NCBI GenBank assembly: GCA_902530685.1
Contig: CACAAZ010000009.1
Location: forward strand, 1-47,477
Source of the DNA: an uncultured Alphaproteobacteria bacterium
GTDB lineage: Bacteria > Pseudomonadota > Alphaproteobacteria > HIMB59 > GCA-002718135
Direction of reading: 5' to 3'
DNA length: 47,477 nt
The translations under genes were made by a program, and so were the position numbers. The notes below the pieces were generated by a model. That model did not search any database, was not told the DNA's origin, and was given only the letters and a program-made list of their open reading frames with translations. This document shows, piece by piece, positions 2,159-11,543 of this stretch (position 1 is its first letter; every line of letters begins with the position of its first letter).

Positions 2159-2165
2159 TTTGAGT

Positions 2166-3317
2166 ATGAATGAATCTTTTGATATTTTAATTATTGGTGG
2201 TGGTATTAATGGTGCTGGAATCGTTAGGGATGCATCAGGAAGAAATTTAAAAGTCTGTTTGGTTGAAAAGAATAAAGTTGGCTCTGCTACTTCATCTTGG
2301 TCTACAAAGTTAATACATGGGGGATTAAGGTATCTTGAAAATTATGAATTTCGTCTTGTTCGTGAGTCTTTAAAGGAAAGAGAAGTTATTAAAAGAATTG
2401 CTTGTGATATAACTACACCTATACCATTTATTATACCCTATCAAAAATCTTTAAGGCCTAAATGGATGATTAAACTTGGCTTATTTTTGTATGATAATCT
2501 TGGTGGAAAAATGACAATACCAAAATCTTCAACAATAAATATTAAAAAAGAAATTCCAAATATTTTAAAAGATCAATATAAAACTGGTTTTCAATATTAT
2601 GATTTACAGATTGATGATAAAAAACTTGTTGAATTAAATATTTATGACGCAGAGAAAAATGGAGCTACAATTATAGAAAATAGAAAAGTTATAAGGGCAA
2701 AACGAAATAAAAATATTTGGGATATAATACTTGATGATAACACAGTACTTCAGACTAAAATTCTCATAAATGCTGCTGGACCCTGGATAAATGATATCTT
2801 AACCAAGGTAATCAAATTAAATTCAAAAAAATCAATAAGACTTGTAAAAGGAAGTCATATTATAACAAAAAGTCTTTACAAACAAAAAAGAGCCTTCACT
2901 TTGCAAAATGATGATAATAGAATAATATTTGTAATACCTTATAAAGAAAAATATTCTCTAATTGGTACTACTGAAACTGAGGTTTTTTCTCCTGAAAATC
3001 CTAAAATTGATGATAGTGAAATTGATTATTTAATAAATTCAGTAAATAAATATTTTATTAAACAAATATCAAGAGATAATGTGCTAAGCTCTTATTCTGG
3101 CATTAGGCCTCTAATTGAAGATTTTAAAGAAGCTTCAAAAGTTACTAGAGACTATGTATTTGATTTAAATGAAGATGACTCACAAGCCCCATTGCTAAAC
3201 ATTTATGGAGGCAAACTTACAACTTACAGAAAATTAGCTGAAAATGTTCTCCTTACTCTTAATAAATATATTGTTGTAGATGATAAAAATTCATGGACTG
3301 CTAATCATAAACTATAA
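2166..3317 (+). CDS. glpD: Glycerol-3-phosphate dehydrogenase GlpD, lacking the C-terminal domain
   Basis: FAD-dependent sn-glycerol-3-phosphate dehydrogenase, which oxidises glycerol-3-phosphate to dihydroxyacetone phosphate and passes electrons to quinone at the inner membrane. The dinucleotide-binding motif is at residues 11-18 (GGGINGAG). The GlpD signatures 'STKLIHGGLRYLE' and 'IYGGKLTTYRKLAE' are both present. At 383 residues it is about 110 shorter than GlpD of E. coli (about 500), and it stops soon after the last signature, where the C-terminal helical domain should begin. I found no continuation in the other frames downstream. I used ATG 2166 rather than the in-frame TTG at 2160. The glycerol kinase gene lies at the far end of the window. 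Confidence 0.85.
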   Translation: MNESFDILIIGGGINGAGIVRDASGRNLKVCLVEKNKVGSATSSWSTKLIHGGLRYLENYEFRLVRESLKEREVIKRIACDITTPIPFIIPYQKSLRPKWMIKLGLFLYDNLGGKMTIPKSSTINIKKEIPNILKDQYKTGFQYYDLQIDDKKLVELNIYDAEKNGATIIENRKVIRAKRNKNIWDIILDDNTVLQTKILINAAGPWINDILTKVIKLNSKKSIRLVKGSHIITKSLYKQKRAFTLQNDDNRIIFVIPYKEKYSLIGTTETEVFSPENPKIDDSEIDYLINSVNKYFIKQISRDNVLSSYSGIRPLIEDFKEASKVTRDYVFDLNEDDSQAPLLNIYGGKLTTYRKLAENVLLTLNKYIVVDDKNSWTANHKL

Positions 3318-3320
3318 TTG

Positions 3321-3417
3321 GTATTCCTCTTAAATAATTTTTTAAATTTGGTGGGCAGAAAAGTTTTATAAGAGGAATACTTCTTATAGGAGGAAATAAT
3401 ATGAACTCTCTGCCCAC
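3321..3417 (+). ncRNA. Candidate pseudoknotted RNA element downstream of glpD
   Basis: Two perfect inverted repeats interleave here. Arm a, GTATTCCTCTTA (3321-3332), pairs with a' (3369-3380), 12 bp. Arm b, GTGGGCAGA (3351-3359), pairs with b' (3409-3417), 9 bp. The order a-b-a'-b' is an H-type pseudoknot, with linkers of 18, 9 and 28 bases that look long enough to span the stems. The last linker holds a strong Shine-Dalgarno (AGGAGG, 3388-3393) and the ATG at 3401; b' lies inside the mini-ORF. The first arm begins 3 bases after the glpD stop. I do not recognise it as a known riboswitch class. An RNA role is inference; the repeats are seen. Confidence 0.5.
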
Positions 3418-3427
3418 TTTATTTTAG
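3401..3427 (+). CDS. Possible 8-codon ORF with strong ribosome binding site
   Basis: ATG at 3401 follows AGGAGG (3388-3393) with 7 bases of spacing, one of the best Shine-Dalgarno matches in the window. It encodes only MNSLPTLF before TAG. Codons 3-6 form the b' arm of the inverted repeat, so a translating ribosome would melt that stem. A leader-peptide or ribosome-sensing role is possible but is inference, and a chance SD is the alternative. Confidence 0.3.
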   Translation: MNSLPTLF

Positions 3428-3468
3428 CTAAAATAGATTAAAGAGTATAAAAATATTTAAAAATTAAA

Positions 3469-3496
3469 GTATTGCCTCTTAAATAAGAGACAATAC
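3469..3496 (-). terminator. Intrinsic terminator of the thuA-thuB-aglK unit
   Basis: GTATTG and CTCTTA arms (3469-3474, 3476-3481) pair with TAAGAG and CAATAC (3484-3489, 3491-3496), leaving one internal mismatch and a very short loop. On the minus strand the hairpin lies just past the aglK stop and is followed by a T-rich tail (TTTAATTTTTAAATATTTTT, reading down from 3468). The plus side has no T run. Its first arm nearly repeats 3321-3337. Confidence 0.65.
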
Positions 3497-3511: not shown

Positions 3512-4591
3512 TTATAAAAACGCTTGATTTGATGTATCAAATAAATGACATCTATTAGCAGGGAAACCTACTTTAACAGTATCTCCAACTTTTATAGAAG
3601 AATTACCTTCGGTTTCAACAACTAATGGTTCACCATCTTTTTCCAAATAAAGGAATGTGCCTGAACCAAGTTTTTCTACAACAAAAACTTTACTTTCCCA
3701 ACTTCCATCTGCCTGTTCATTGACAACCAAATGCTCTGGCCTTATTCCAAGCGTAACGCTCTCTCCTTCAGAAGCAGATGCTGACATTTTTGGAACTGAT
3801 ATTTTCGACATTCCCATTAAATCAACTTCTGTACCATTTCCACTTTTACTTGTAATTTTAGTAGATATAAAATTCATTTTGGGTGAGCCTATAAAACCAC
3901 CAACAAACATGTTATTTGGTTTTTCATAGAGATCCATTGGAGAACCTTTCTGAGAAACAATGCCTGTATCTAAAACAACAATATCATCAGCAAGAGTCAT
4001 TGCCTCTGTTTGATCATGTGTTACATAAATCATTGTTGCTTCAAGTTCGTTATGAAGTTTTGCAAGTTCAACTCTCATTTGCACTCTTAAAGCAGCATCT
4101 AAATTTGAGAGTGGCTCGTCAAAAAGGAAAACTTTTGGTTTTCTTGTGATAGCTCTACCAATAGCAACTCTTTGTCTCTGACCACCAGAAAGTTGTTTAG
4201 GTTTTCTTTTAAGATAATCTTCAATTTGCAATATTCTTGCAGCTTCGTTTACTCTTTCATTAATTTCATCTTTAGATCTTTTTTCTAATTTTAAACCAAA
4301 TGCCATGTTGTCAAAAACAGTCATGTGCGGGTACAGAGCATAGGATTGGAAAACCATTGCAATATTTCTTTGTTTGGGAGGTAAATCATTTACTATTTGT
4401 CCATCAATTGAAATAGTACCAGAATTAATATCTTCTAAACCTGCAATCATTCTAAGCATTGTTGATTTACCACAACCACTTGGTCCAACTAAAACAGTAA
4501 AAGATTGACTTTTAATATCTAAAGAAACATCCTTAATGACATGAACGTCACCAAAGTATTTGTTGACTGTATTAATATTTATATCGGCCAC
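3512..4591 (-). CDS. aglK: Sugar ABC transporter ATP-binding protein (AglK/MalK/UgpC type)
   Basis: A 359-residue ATPase subunit energising the AglF/AglG permease at the cytoplasmic face. Walker A is at residues 36-44 (GPSGCGKST). Next come the Q-loop 'MVFQSYALYPHMT', signature 'LSGGQRQRVAIGRA', Walker B 'FLFDEPLSNLD' and H-loop 'YVTHDQTEA', then a C-terminal TOBE/regulatory region from about 240. I chose GTG 4591 because AAAGGAGG (4597-4604) lies 5 bases upstream; the longer reading begins with a TTG at 4618 and would place that SD inside the gene. It is third in the thuA-thuB-aglK unit, separate from aglEFG. MalK/UgpC paralogues are hard to tell apart by sequence; the assignment to the alpha-glucoside/trehalose system rests on context. 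Confidence 0.88.
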   Translation of the reverse strand: MADININTVNKYFGDVHVIKDVSLDIKSQSFTVLVGPSGCGKSTMLRMIAGLEDINSGTISIDGQIVNDLPPKQRNIAMVFQSYALYPHMTVFDNMAFGLKLEKRSKDEINERVNEAARILQIEDYLKRKPKQLSGGQRQRVAIGRAITRKPKVFLFDEPLSNLDAALRVQMRVELAKLHNELEATMIYVTHDQTEAMTLADDIVVLDTGIVSQKGSPMDLYEKPNNMFVGGFIGSPKMNFISTKITSKSGNGTEVDLMGMSKISVPKMSASASEGESVTLGIRPEHLVVNEQADGSWESKVFVVEKLGSGTFLYLEKDGEPLVVETEGNSSIKVGDTVKVGFPANRCHLFDTSNQAFL

Positions 4592-4639
4592 TTCATCCTC
4601 CTTTGAGCGATCTTTCAAGCGAAGAACTTACATTAGTTC

Positions 4640-9058: not shown

Positions 9059-9080
9059 TAGTGATTAAATATATAAAAAG

Positions 9081-9111
9081 AACAGGCGAACAAGTTAATT
9101 GTTCGCCTGTT
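9081..9111 (-). terminator. Hairpin between aglE and aglF (partial terminator or 3' stabiliser)
   Basis: Perfect 13-bp stem AACAGGCGAACAA (9081-9093) with 9099-9111 and a 5-base loop. In the minus-strand direction it is followed by CTTTTTATATA. It sits 13 bases past the aglE stop and 22 bases before the aglF start. Such hairpins after binding-protein genes usually let through only part of transcription or protect the upstream mRNA, as in malE-malF. The structure is seen; the effect is inferred. Confidence 0.8.
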
Positions 9112-9124
9112 AATAATGGAAAAG

Positions 9125-10435
9125 TTACTTAATTGCGTCCCAACTATCTTGAATCGCATCTGCTACATCTTGGGCAGATTTTCCATTAGTATAGTCAACC
9201 ATACCAGTCCAGAAAGTACCTGCACCAATAGCACCAGGCATTAAGTCTGACGCATCAAATCTAAATGTTGTTGCGCCTGTTAGAATTTCACCTAGTTTTC
9301 TAAAAGTTTCACTGGCATATTTACTGCCATCAACACCTTTATGAGGTGTTAGGAAGCCGCCTTTAGCCATCCAATACTCATGAGCTTCAGGATGCATTAA
9401 AAATTTAATGAACTCTATTGTTGCTTGGTTATCATTAGTAGCAGCTACTAATGTTCCAGCTCCAAGTACAGGAGTTCCTAAATCTTTAGTTGCATATGCA
9501 GGGAAATAAAAGAAATCATAATCAACGCCAGCTTCAACACCTTCAGGGAAGAATGCAGGTATAAAGCTAGCTTGTCTATGCATCATACACTCTGCTGGTG
9601 AAGTGAAAAGTCCATTTGGTGCATCTCTAAAATCAGTAGTTGCAACTGCTTTAGATCCACCATTTACAAACTTATCGTTCAACGCAAAAGTTCCAAAGAA
9701 ATTCATTGCTTCAATAACTCTTGGGTCATTAAAAGGCATTTCGTTGGATACCCACATATCATAAACATCAGGCGAATGTGTTCTTAACATGATATCTTCC
9801 ATCCAGTCAGTTGCAGGCCAACCAGTTGCTGCACCTGAACCTAGACCAATACACCATGGAGTATTTCCATCAGACGCCATTTGTCTTGTTAGTGCAATTA
9901 ACTCTTCCATAGTTCCAGGAACTTCGTAACCATTGTCTTCGAAGTTATCTGGTGAGTACCAAACTAAACTTTTAACATTTGTTCTGAAGAAAATTGCATT
10001 GAATTGGTCGGTACCATTTTCATCTGCATAAGTTGAAAGATCAATCCATGATTGACCAGCAGCATAATTGTCTAACACCATTTGTTTTATGTCATCTCCT
10101 AGAGGAACTAATCCCCCCATCGCTGCTGCATTTGCAGCTAGACCTGGTTGTGGAAATACAACTAAATCTGCAGCACTTCCTGCTTTTAGATCAATCATAA
10201 CTTGTTGCTCAAAACTATCTGAGCCACCATATTCAAAAGTTGCTCCAGTAGCCTTTTCAAATATAGCACCTACTTCTCTCATTATTTCTTGTTCTGGTGA
10301 TAACCAAGGACCAAACATAACAACTTTTTGTCCGCTTAGATCCGGACCAGTATAAGCATGGCCTCCTGCTAATGCAGAAAAGCTTATAAAAAATGATGAG
10401 AAGGTAACTAATAGAATTTTAAATAATTTTTTCAT
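9125..10435 (-). CDS. aglE: Alpha-glucoside/trehalose ABC transporter substrate-binding protein AglE
   Basis: A 436-residue periplasmic binding protein with a clear Sec signal (residues 1-24, MKKLFKILLVTF... to ALAGG). The mature part has AglE-type features: 'VVMFGPWLSPEQEIMREV', 'DLVVFPQPGLAANAAA', 'NTPWCIGLGSGAATGWPATD'. I chose ATG 10435 because GGAGG (10440-10444) lies 4 bases upstream and the signal peptide begins there; the open frame extends 11 codons further. Its codons are visibly richer in G and C than the neighbours, as expected for a highly expressed gene. It opens the aglEFG unit and is controlled by the operator at 10472-10487. Confidence 0.9.
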   Translation of the reverse strand: MKKLFKILLVTFSSFFISFSALAGGHAYTGPDLSGQKVVMFGPWLSPEQEIMREVGAIFEKATGATFEYGGSDSFEQQVMIDLKAGSAADLVVFPQPGLAANAAAMGGLVPLGDDIKQMVLDNYAAGQSWIDLSTYADENGTDQFNAIFFRTNVKSLVWYSPDNFEDNGYEVPGTMEELIALTRQMASDGNTPWCIGLGSGAATGWPATDWMEDIMLRTHSPDVYDMWVSNEMPFNDPRVIEAMNFFGTFALNDKFVNGGSKAVATTDFRDAPNGLFTSPAECMMHRQASFIPAFFPEGVEAGVDYDFFYFPAYATKDLGTPVLGAGTLVAATNDNQATIEFIKFLMHPEAHEYWMAKGGFLTPHKGVDGSKYASETFRKLGEILTGATTFRFDASDLMPGAIGAGTFWTGMVDYTNGKSAQDVADAIQDSWDAIK

Positions 10436-10471
10436 TATTCCTCCATATTTATAAATATAAACATACATTTT

Positions 10472-10493
10472 ACCAAAACGTTTTGGTTGTCAA
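10472..10493 (-). promoter_or_regulatory. aglE promoter -35 with perfect LacI-type operator
   Basis: A 16-bp perfect palindrome, ACCAAAACGTTTTGGT (10472-10487), has the central CG typical of LacI-family operators. On the minus strand a consensus -35 TTGACA (10493-10488) directly abuts it, so the operator fills the spacer. The -10 is weak (AAATGT or AATGTA). On the plus side TTGTCA (10487-10492) and TATTCA (10510-10515) with a 17-base spacer could drive the regulator gene, giving autoregulation. Confidence 0.75.
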
Positions 10494-10523
10494 TTTATTA
10501 TTTGTCAGTTATTCATTATTTTG

Positions 10524-11543
10524 ATGAATATTAAGGAATTAGCAAAAAAACTTGATCTATCCATAACCACTGTATCTAGGGCACTTGGAGGTTACTCAGA
10601 TGTAAGTGACAAGACAAGAAAAAGGGTAAAAAAATATGCTTCAAAATATCAATATAGCCCCAACCCTTATGCTAGTATTTTGGCATCTGGTAAAACAAAT
10701 ACAGTAGGATATGTTCTACCAATATATGGCACTAATTCAAGCACCCTTAATCAAGGCAACTTTTTTCAGTTTGTGTCAGGTATGTCTGATGAATTGTTCT
10801 CTGAAAGTATACAATTACAAATTTTGTTTGCTAAAAGTGAAAATGAAGAAATAAAGGCTTATGAAAAATTAATCTTAGAGCAAAAAATTGAAAATATTGT
10901 GCTACAAAATATTAAAATAAATGATAAACGAATTGAATTTTTAAATAAACATAAAATAAATTATGTTGCTTGGGGAAAAACAAAATCCAATAAAAATTTT
11001 TCTTGGGTAGATTTAGATAACTCTGGAGCAATTGAAACAATTACAAATTATTTAATAAAAAAAAAACATAGAAATATTGCATATATTAATATTTCAGAAA
11101 AATATAATTTTGCAAATGAAAGAAAATTGTCATTTTTAAGAACTCTCAAAAAAAACAAAATTAATTTTAACAAAAATTACTACGCATCAGTTAAACTTGA
11201 GGAGCCTGAGAAAAGTTTTGAAATAATCAAAAATATGTTAAAAAAAAATAAAAAAATATCATCGATAATTTGCTCAACTGAATATTCTGCCTTGAGTGCT
11301 ATTAAAGCTTGTAACTATTTGAAATTAAAAATTGGTAAAGATATATCAATTATAACTTTTGATGGACCTTTAGTTAGAGATTTAAGCTCACCTCCAATCA
11401 CTGCTGTATCCTTTCCAGTAAAAGAGCTTGGGAAAAAAGCTATTAATATCCTTTTAAATAAGGCAAAAAATCCTAATAAAATTGAAAATTATCTAGCTAA
11501 AGTTAATATTATTGAGAGAGGATCTGTTCATTATTGTGATTAA
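10524..11543 (+). CDS. aglR: LacI-family transcriptional regulator of the agl/thu locus
   Basis: A 339-residue LacI/GalR repressor. The N-terminal helix-turn-helix is clear (residues 1-20, MNIKELAKKLDLSITTVSRA) with the hinge helix near residues 45-58 ('YSPNPYASILASGKT'). A periplasmic-binding-like effector domain follows, with 'GYVLP' at about 65 and 'ISIITFDGP' near 275. I used ATG 10524; a TTG lies one codon upstream. It is divergent from aglE with the palindromic operator between them, so it most likely represses aglEFG, itself and the thuA unit until a disaccharide binds. The effector is inferred, not seen. Confidence 0.87.
   Translation: MNIKELAKKLDLSITTVSRALGGYSDVSDKTRKRVKKYASKYQYSPNPYASILASGKTNTVGYVLPIYGTNSSTLNQGNFFQFVSGMSDELFSESIQLQILFAKSENEEIKAYEKLILEQKIENIVLQNIKINDKRIEFLNKHKINYVAWGKTKSNKNFSWVDLDNSGAIETITNYLIKKKHRNIAYINISEKYNFANERKLSFLRTLKKNKINFNKNYYASVKLEEPEKSFEIIKNMLKKNKKISSIICSTEYSALSAIKACNYLKLKIGKDISIITFDGPLVRDLSSPPITAVSFPVKELGKKAINILLNKAKNPNKIENYLAKVNIIERGSVHYCD

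Follow-up and report, generated by a model that had tools for sequence, protein, structure and literature searches.

What do the interleaved inverted repeats behind a glpD-like gene of an uncultured marine alphaproteobacterium encode, and on which strand would they be read? The window, which is the whole 47,477-nt stretch of DNA analysed here, contains two exact reverse-complement pairs, as read directly from the sequence: GTATTCCTCTTA at 3321-3332 with 3369-3380, and GTGGGCAGA at 3351-3359 with 3409-3417. An earlier note had described these 12-bp and 9-bp perfect repeats, in the order a-b-a′-b′, and all lie where it placed them. The AGGAGG at 3388-3393, the ATG at 3401-3403 and the 8-codon frame at 3401-3427 are likewise present, and TTCCTC (3324-3329) is complementary to GAGGAA (3390-3395), as had been claimed. 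Both strands fold stably relative to shuffled sequences: the plus strand of 3300-3440 has a z-score of -3.11 (0/200 shuffles as low) and the minus strand of 3305-3417 a z-score of -3.13 (2/200 shuffles as low). The element occurs once in its own genome, where other matches have E-values of 0.003 or worse.

The element recurs throughout one family of related bacteria. A DNA search of family f1 gave matches (E ≤ 0.001) in 88 of 110 genomes, with one strong copy each, and for that reason the element is more than a chance arrangement. Eight of the ten f1 genomes that are at least 90% complete have a DNA match, and those without a match are 53-88% complete among the misses listed (n = 20 of 22). 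A covariance model built from 55 distinct cores (alignment A2) gave 89 matches among the 162 genomes of the order, which we take to be GTDB HIMB59. They represent five of seven genera and all fall within the 110 genomes of family f1; by subtraction, the model matched 0 of the 52 genomes of family f2. Its additional match relative to the DNA search is in genome G133 (E = 0.001), 109 nt behind an ATPase frame. At that locus (L214, ~1201-1300, genus g7), a diverged copy is followed by a CUCUCUGCUUCGGAGAGA hairpin, with the 5′ half common with stem b. A DNA search of 61 relatives found a near group with 85-96% identity and the element behind glpD; in some genomes, G021 and G011 for instance, the element is 94% identical compared to 69% for the glpD protein. 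Within a class-wide sample of 385 genomes, matches occur only in the window's own genome and in one congeneric genome. A pattern scan of a contig database returned 78 loci, in records labelled as uncultured Alphaproteobacteria, Pelagibacteraceae bacterium and MarineAlpha5 bins. The glpD protein itself has two relatives on viral contigs, at 48% identity. Counts given below as fractions of 79 refer to distinct copies from 93 extracted loci, where some genomes give two loci and the weak G133 copy is excluded.

Base pairing in these copies identifies the strand. For stem b, 10 pairs in 55 sequences give 550 cells, of which 475 are Watson-Crick pairs, 10 are mismatches and one is a gap; there are 64 G-U cells if the RNA is read from the minus strand and 0 if it is read from the plus strand. 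Paired cells make up 98.2% of the stem, compared to 50.6-65.2% for slid partners, and the covariation score is 0.203 versus 0.144 when shuffled, a value that 0/500 shuffles reach. Three pairs are changed on both sides. With eight further pair types, the stem does not stand out from shuffles, 448/500 of which reach that number, and 20 of the 22 double-change cells come from a single pair. On a tree built from ATPase DNA for the 53 of 55 sequences with enough flank, stem b has 13 inferred changes between Watson-Crick and G-U pairs, all of minus type, along with two compensatory double changes and nine changes from pair to mismatch. Arms a and a′, scored in 70/79 sequences, give 743 Watson-Crick, 71 minus-type G-U, 6 plus-type G-U and 20 mismatched cells, and all six plus-type cells come from four weak best matches (L092, L093, L095 and L100). 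Paired changes at homologous loci, which the earlier note had proposed as a check, do occur in stem b, and a/a′ varies by G-U exchange and from A-U to G-C; both indicate the minus strand and not the plus strand on which the structure had been proposed. Judged by G-U asymmetry and by synteny, the RNA strand is minus.

Could the element still be a plus-strand cis-regulatory RNA of glpD, that is, a riboswitch, an attenuator or a translated mini-ORF? The Shine-Dalgarno (SD) sequence, the ATG and the interleaved perfect repeats would all suit such an RNA, and the earlier note had proposed that translation of the mini-ORF would open stem b. Its start and frame are not conserved across the 79 copies as a translated leader peptide would require: the ATG is lost in 3/79, and its distance to the stem falls in all three frames (48, 17 and 10 of 75 measurable copies), which contradicts that claim. 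The encoded peptide ranges from 1 to 34 aa; it has 10 aa in 42/76 copies, mostly MNPLPxxILV-like and from close relatives. All that lies directly downstream on the plus strand is a frame of 90 aa, which runs antisense to the ATPase gene, and no same-strand downstream gene was found that a riboswitch or attenuator could control, the next gene of annotated size being convergent. The element is kept without a convergent glpD in 9/79 copies and lies behind an ATPase frame in 79/79, which argues against a glpD-linked riboswitch or attenuator, although the sRNA that was named as a third option is upheld. Together with the absence of plus-type G-U cells in stem b, frame and synteny lead us to reject the plus-strand riboswitch, attenuator or mini-ORF, and we consider a plus-strand RNA of glpD highly improbable. 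On the minus strand, a same-strand gene follows the element in only 3/79 copies (glpD or gpsA-like). These are L066, with glpD on the RNA's strand, and L093 and L100, with a gpsA-like gene there (by eye); the predicted sRNA lies just upstream of these genes, and a cis role is possible there.

The most constant neighbour is on the other side. An ATPase-type open frame ends 93-113 nt upstream, on the same strand as the RNA, in 79/79 copies, and its GIRPE motif is found in 78/79; the frame in L095 is truncated and looks alike by eye. In the window, this is the gene for a MalK/UgpC-type sugar ABC transporter ATPase (3512-4618, minus strand; Pfam ABC_tran, TOBE_2 and OB_MalK). The same transporter cluster includes a sugar substrate-binding protein (SBP) gene (9125-10468, minus; Pfam SBP_bac_1), from which a LacI-family regulator gene (10521-11543, plus; Pfam LacI and Peripla_BP_3) diverges, and the palindrome CCAAAACGTTTTGG before the SBP gene (10473-10486) is a putative LacI-type operator. 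The SBP gene is separated from the permeases by a strong hairpin with a T-run (9075-9111, minus), perhaps a terminator that gives SBP in excess of permease. Convergent with the RNA is the glpD-like FAD oxidoreductase gene (2160-3317, plus; Pfam DAO), whose frame opens with TTG at 2160 and has an ATG at 2166. Such a convergent glpD is the other neighbour in 70/79 copies, and in six of the remaining nine a HAD-type gene on the strand opposite to the RNA takes its place. Four of five longer regions (L306-L309) contain the ATPase together with two permeases, an SBP and a LacI-type regulator, and two of the four also have a GH4-like gene (functions by eye, apart from the window's own proteins). In the region L305 (G068:C2:80000-88600), the ATPase-sRNA pair is kept with a different SBP/permease set and a sulfatase-like gene (by eye), which suggests that the ATPase serves several transporters.

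This fixed position on the ATPase strand, 93-113 nt behind the frame in all 79 copies, is what would be expected if the RNA were a 3′-end product of the ATPase operon, formed by terminator read-through or by processing, that reports transporter expression as OppZ does and has no promoter of its own. In the window, however, an intrinsic-terminator-like site with a 12-bp stem and a U-rich tail follows the ATPase gene (3459-3496, minus) and separates operon and RNA. A weak candidate -10 element, TAAAAT (3421-3426, minus), lies in upstream regions with ~85% A+T. An operator-like palindrome is found near the RNA in only 19/79 copies, at ~-55 in 14 and at ~-28 in five; in these copies it suggests an own promoter, although the low count and the weak promoter signal would suit an operon product. 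The window's own sRNA copy has no operator-like motif nearby. Weighing these points, we think an operon 3′-end product unlikely. In L059 (~1580-1600, genome G014), ACCAAAACGTTTTGGT stands in place of the 3′ arm and is at once an operator-like palindrome and a terminator-like hairpin.

The sRNA gene is predicted at 3305-3417 on the minus strand, with a length of ~100 nt, from the conserved block in 79 copies, the G-U asymmetry and the covariance model, which matches 3347-3418 (minus) in the window. The 5′ end of the transcript would lie near 3415-3417 and the 3′ end near 3305-3320. On sequence grounds, the RNA is a hairpin whose loop contains two anti-SD (aSD) motifs and whose 3′ arm pairs with the second motif in most copies. 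The hairpin is closed by stem b, with the 5′ arm GUGGGCAGAGAGUU (3404-3417, minus; 98.2% of cells paired across the 55 distinct sequences) and the 3′ arm AACUUUUCUGCCCAC (3351-3365, minus; assigned by the same pairing counts). The first loop motif, aSD1 (CAUAUUAUUUCCUCCUA; 3387-3403, minus), is nearly invariant, and its complement reads as an SD, a 7-nt spacer and AUG. The second, aSD2 (GUAUUCCUCUUA; 3369-3380, minus), is identical to repeat arm a′ and is delimited by the alignment and by a/a′ pairing; arm a (3321-3332, minus) pairs with it and resembles the 3′ arm of a terminator. The loop sequence TATTATTTCCTCCT is nearly invariant across copies, and TTCATATTATTTCCTCCTATAAGAAGTATTCCTC, the complement of SD, 7-nt spacer and AUG, is highly conserved. 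In predicted folds, aSD1 is open, whereas aSD2 may be taken up by arm a or by a small hairpin of its own. In most copies with a convergent glpD, minus-strand pairing supports stems a/a′ and b alike; the earlier note's interleaved stems in a conserved structured RNA are thus retained, transferred from the plus to the minus strand, and may form together as an H-type pseudoknot.

Arm a appears to be a local addition, since no convincing match to it exists in the nine copies without a convergent glpD, and it is weak or absent also in L059, L092, L144 and L145. By a loose pattern, five consecutive T are found after arm a in 51/79 copies, after stem b in 7/79 and after neither stem in 21/79; L066 has seven T directly after stem b. 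The T-runs after arm a, and a location flanked by converging genes in 70/79 copies, would be compatible with a DNA-level element, either a palindrome bound by a protein or a pair of terminators that serve the two converging genes, in which the SD-like loop is a coincidence. Over much of its length, however, the loop varies no more than the stems do, and G-U exchange that fits one strand only points to RNA; we regard a DNA-level element as very improbable.

If the element is a minus-strand RNA, its loop indicates what it might pair with. Start sites were searched in 27 genomes with at most two mismatches to AGGAGGAAATAATATG, where repeated words were represented by selected sites and the count leaves out G131 and sites that are not gene starts. 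At least 15 distinct genes have a matching start site among the matches listed and inspected, and seven of them encode binding proteins by Pfam. These are a DppA-like SBP_bac_5 protein, a second SBP_bac_5 group (L222, L223, L240 and L242), OpuAC, an AapJ-like SBP_bac_3 protein, a UrtA-like Peripla_BP_5 protein, an AfuA-like SBP_bac_8 protein and, in G068, the SBP_bac_1 protein of the same operon; two peptide SBP groups are 65-68% identical and were counted once. The other genes encode an Fe-ADH, tetrahydrodipicolinate succinyltransferase (dapD), a fasciclin, an FGGY kinase, acyl carrier protein, a cold-shock protein, a glutamine-synthetase type protein and a FYDLN_acid protein. At one mismatch, binding proteins make up 3/5 of the matches listed (DppA-like, OpuAC and the second SBP_bac_5 group, alongside Fe-ADH and dapD). 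On this evidence from sequence, these genes commonly share a style of start site to which the loop is antisense. For the SBP gene in the cluster of the window itself, the spacing is shorter (TATGGAGGAATAATG).

A preference for binding-protein mRNAs is suggested by these matches to a degree that the controls limit. A control word with permuted spacer gave binding proteins in 2/6 distinct clear starts inspected (L276 and L289), one of which (L289) matches both control and target words, and the difference between 2/6 and 7/15 is non-significant. In family f2, which has no sRNA, binding-protein start sites of the same consensus account for 5/5 clear starts among seven sites inspected, so the loop match may reflect a common strong ribosome-binding site. 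The element's TTCTTATAGGAGGAAATAATATGA coincides with a sugar SBP start of f2 in L067, L068 and L069, at 24/24 positions in two genomes and 24/25 in the third. This 24-nt identity does not make the element a simple relic of an SBP gene, because the f2 SBP and the ATPase are kept apart by an opposite-strand SDR-like gene (by eye) and because f1 orthologues of that SBP differ in start-site spacing. Predicted duplex energies for 13 f1 candidates range from -16.6 to -27.2 kcal/mol for SBPs and from -13.6 to -24.1 kcal/mol for non-SBPs, which pair about as strongly, and the f2 SBP reaches -36.5 kcal/mol. The 47 start regions of the window (first ATG, uncurated) average -6.6 kcal/mol, with a best value of -15.4 kcal/mol; this contrast is partly circular because the candidates were picked by their match. 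An RNA with no preference for binding proteins, one that binds strong start sites of whatever gene or serves as a sponge or a general brake on translation, would agree with the control word and with the 8/15 matching genes, among those listed, that do not encode binding proteins. Against it, the conserved complement extends past the SD over the spacer and AUG, and binding proteins are 7/15 of the matches listed, although they would be expected to form a small share of all genes. Such an indiscriminate RNA seems to us rather doubtful.

We consider it probable that the element is a minus-strand sRNA that acts in trans as an anti-SD regulator of transporter SBP mRNAs, like AbcR1/2, in bacteria in which Hfq and ProQ are undetected. 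On this reading, the minus strand would give rise to an RNA of ~100 nt, whose promoter, probably its own, would follow closely on the terminator of a sugar ABC-transporter operon. The loop of its 10-12 bp hairpin would expose two anti-SD motifs, and the first of these continues past the SD complement across the spacer to the start codon (UAGGAGGAAAUAAUAUG). By pairing with the translation starts of SBP mRNAs, those of peptide, amino-acid, betaine and sugar binders among them, the RNA would keep ribosomes from entering, and uptake of one sugar class could in this way tune how much of the other importers is made. Where the 3′ arm is present, as in most copies, it would pair with the second motif and help to end the transcript, giving a pseudoknot topology with the hairpin. 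Such ocean alphaproteobacteria have small genomes, rely heavily on ABC uptake and make abundant binding proteins. More tentatively, the element could be an uptake regulator for the whole family, with a hairpin antisense to the SD-spacer-AUG consensus and a tie to the sugar operon (through a LacI-type operator in some copies), so that sugar would retune the importers without a chaperone. A conserved sRNA directed at binding-protein mRNAs would be a concrete post-transcriptional switch, open to testing, in bacteria that have not been cultured, and it would suggest that control of the AbcR kind is possible where Hfq and ProQ are undetected. Hfq was found in 0/61 relatives from the two families, with 5/14 control genomes positive, and ProQ likewise in 0/61, with a positive control only in E. 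coli; the sample includes 37 f1 genomes that are at most 89% complete, and f2 supplies all ten of the genomes with a completeness of at least 90%. The long, fixed complementarity may compensate for an absent chaperone.

Among the open-licence PMC papers listed by the literature searches, no title or abstract describes this RNA. Meyer et al., on Pelagibacter RNAs, do not mention sRNA, Shine-Dalgarno or ABC transporter in the available portion of their text (PMC2704228), and a Red Sea dRNA-seq study, in its available portion, takes its reference genome from SAR11 and names AEGEAN-169 a single time, in connection with 16S abundance (PMC5069720). At gathering score, Rfam gives only tRNA families in the window, in agreement with the view that no named RNA family has this layout. 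A relaxed search (E ≤ 10) gave 29 weak matches, mostly of microRNA type, with no αr family among them; the top match, SpF41, was rejected at 25.6 bits, far under its cut-off of 52. Rfam includes αr15, and neither sequence nor structure places the element in AbcR/αr15 by that search.

Several known regulators share features with the element. In enterobacteria, GcvB is a single sRNA that controls many ABC binding-protein mRNAs; it differs in its G/U-rich seed, its Hfq dependence and its unrelated locus. CarZ is a 3′ UTR-derived autoregulatory sRNA like OppZ, and both depend on Hfq and RNase E processing. The element differs from both in having a terminator-like site before the RNA and a likely promoter of its own. 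OppZ is similar in lying behind a transporter operon, on its strand, as a 3′ UTR-derived autoregulatory sRNA, according to the available part of the source (PMC7398697). Vsr217 of Vibrio is also tied to a sugar-importer ATPase gene, but it derives from the 5′ UTR upstream of malK and, to go by the title of the source, is aimed at gluconeogenesis (PMC8265627). SisA-D of Caulobacter are alphaproteobacterial sRNAs that repress uptake genes when nutrients are rich, as would be the case here if repression occurs; unlike the element, they are four siblings in an Hfq-based, Hfq-dependent circuit with TonB receptors among their targets, as far as the available text goes (PMC12559287).

Closest in design are AbcR1 and AbcR2 (αr15) of Rhizobiales, alphaproteobacterial sRNAs with two single-stranded anti-SD motifs, a state that predicted folds suggest here for the first motif; the available part of the source includes mRNAs for periplasmic ABC-transporter components among their confirmed targets, probably paired at the ribosome-binding site (PMC8844928). 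Sequence and locus differ, with the element behind a sugar ABC ATPase gene and without an Rfam match, and here UUUCCUCCU and UUCCUC share one hairpin loop that also contains the complement to spacer and AUG. AbcR-type sRNAs elsewhere are Hfq-linked, whereas Hfq was found in none of the 61 relatives here. To our knowledge, NfeR1, which we take to be αr14, has no locus or sequence in common with the element. In S. meliloti, NfeR1 is a short sRNA with redundant aSD motifs, and its two validated targets encode periplasmic binding proteins, according to the same partly available source (PMC8844928); its three aSD motifs are identical, compared to two unequal ones here. By analogy, the element most likely works like AbcR1/2 and NfeR1.
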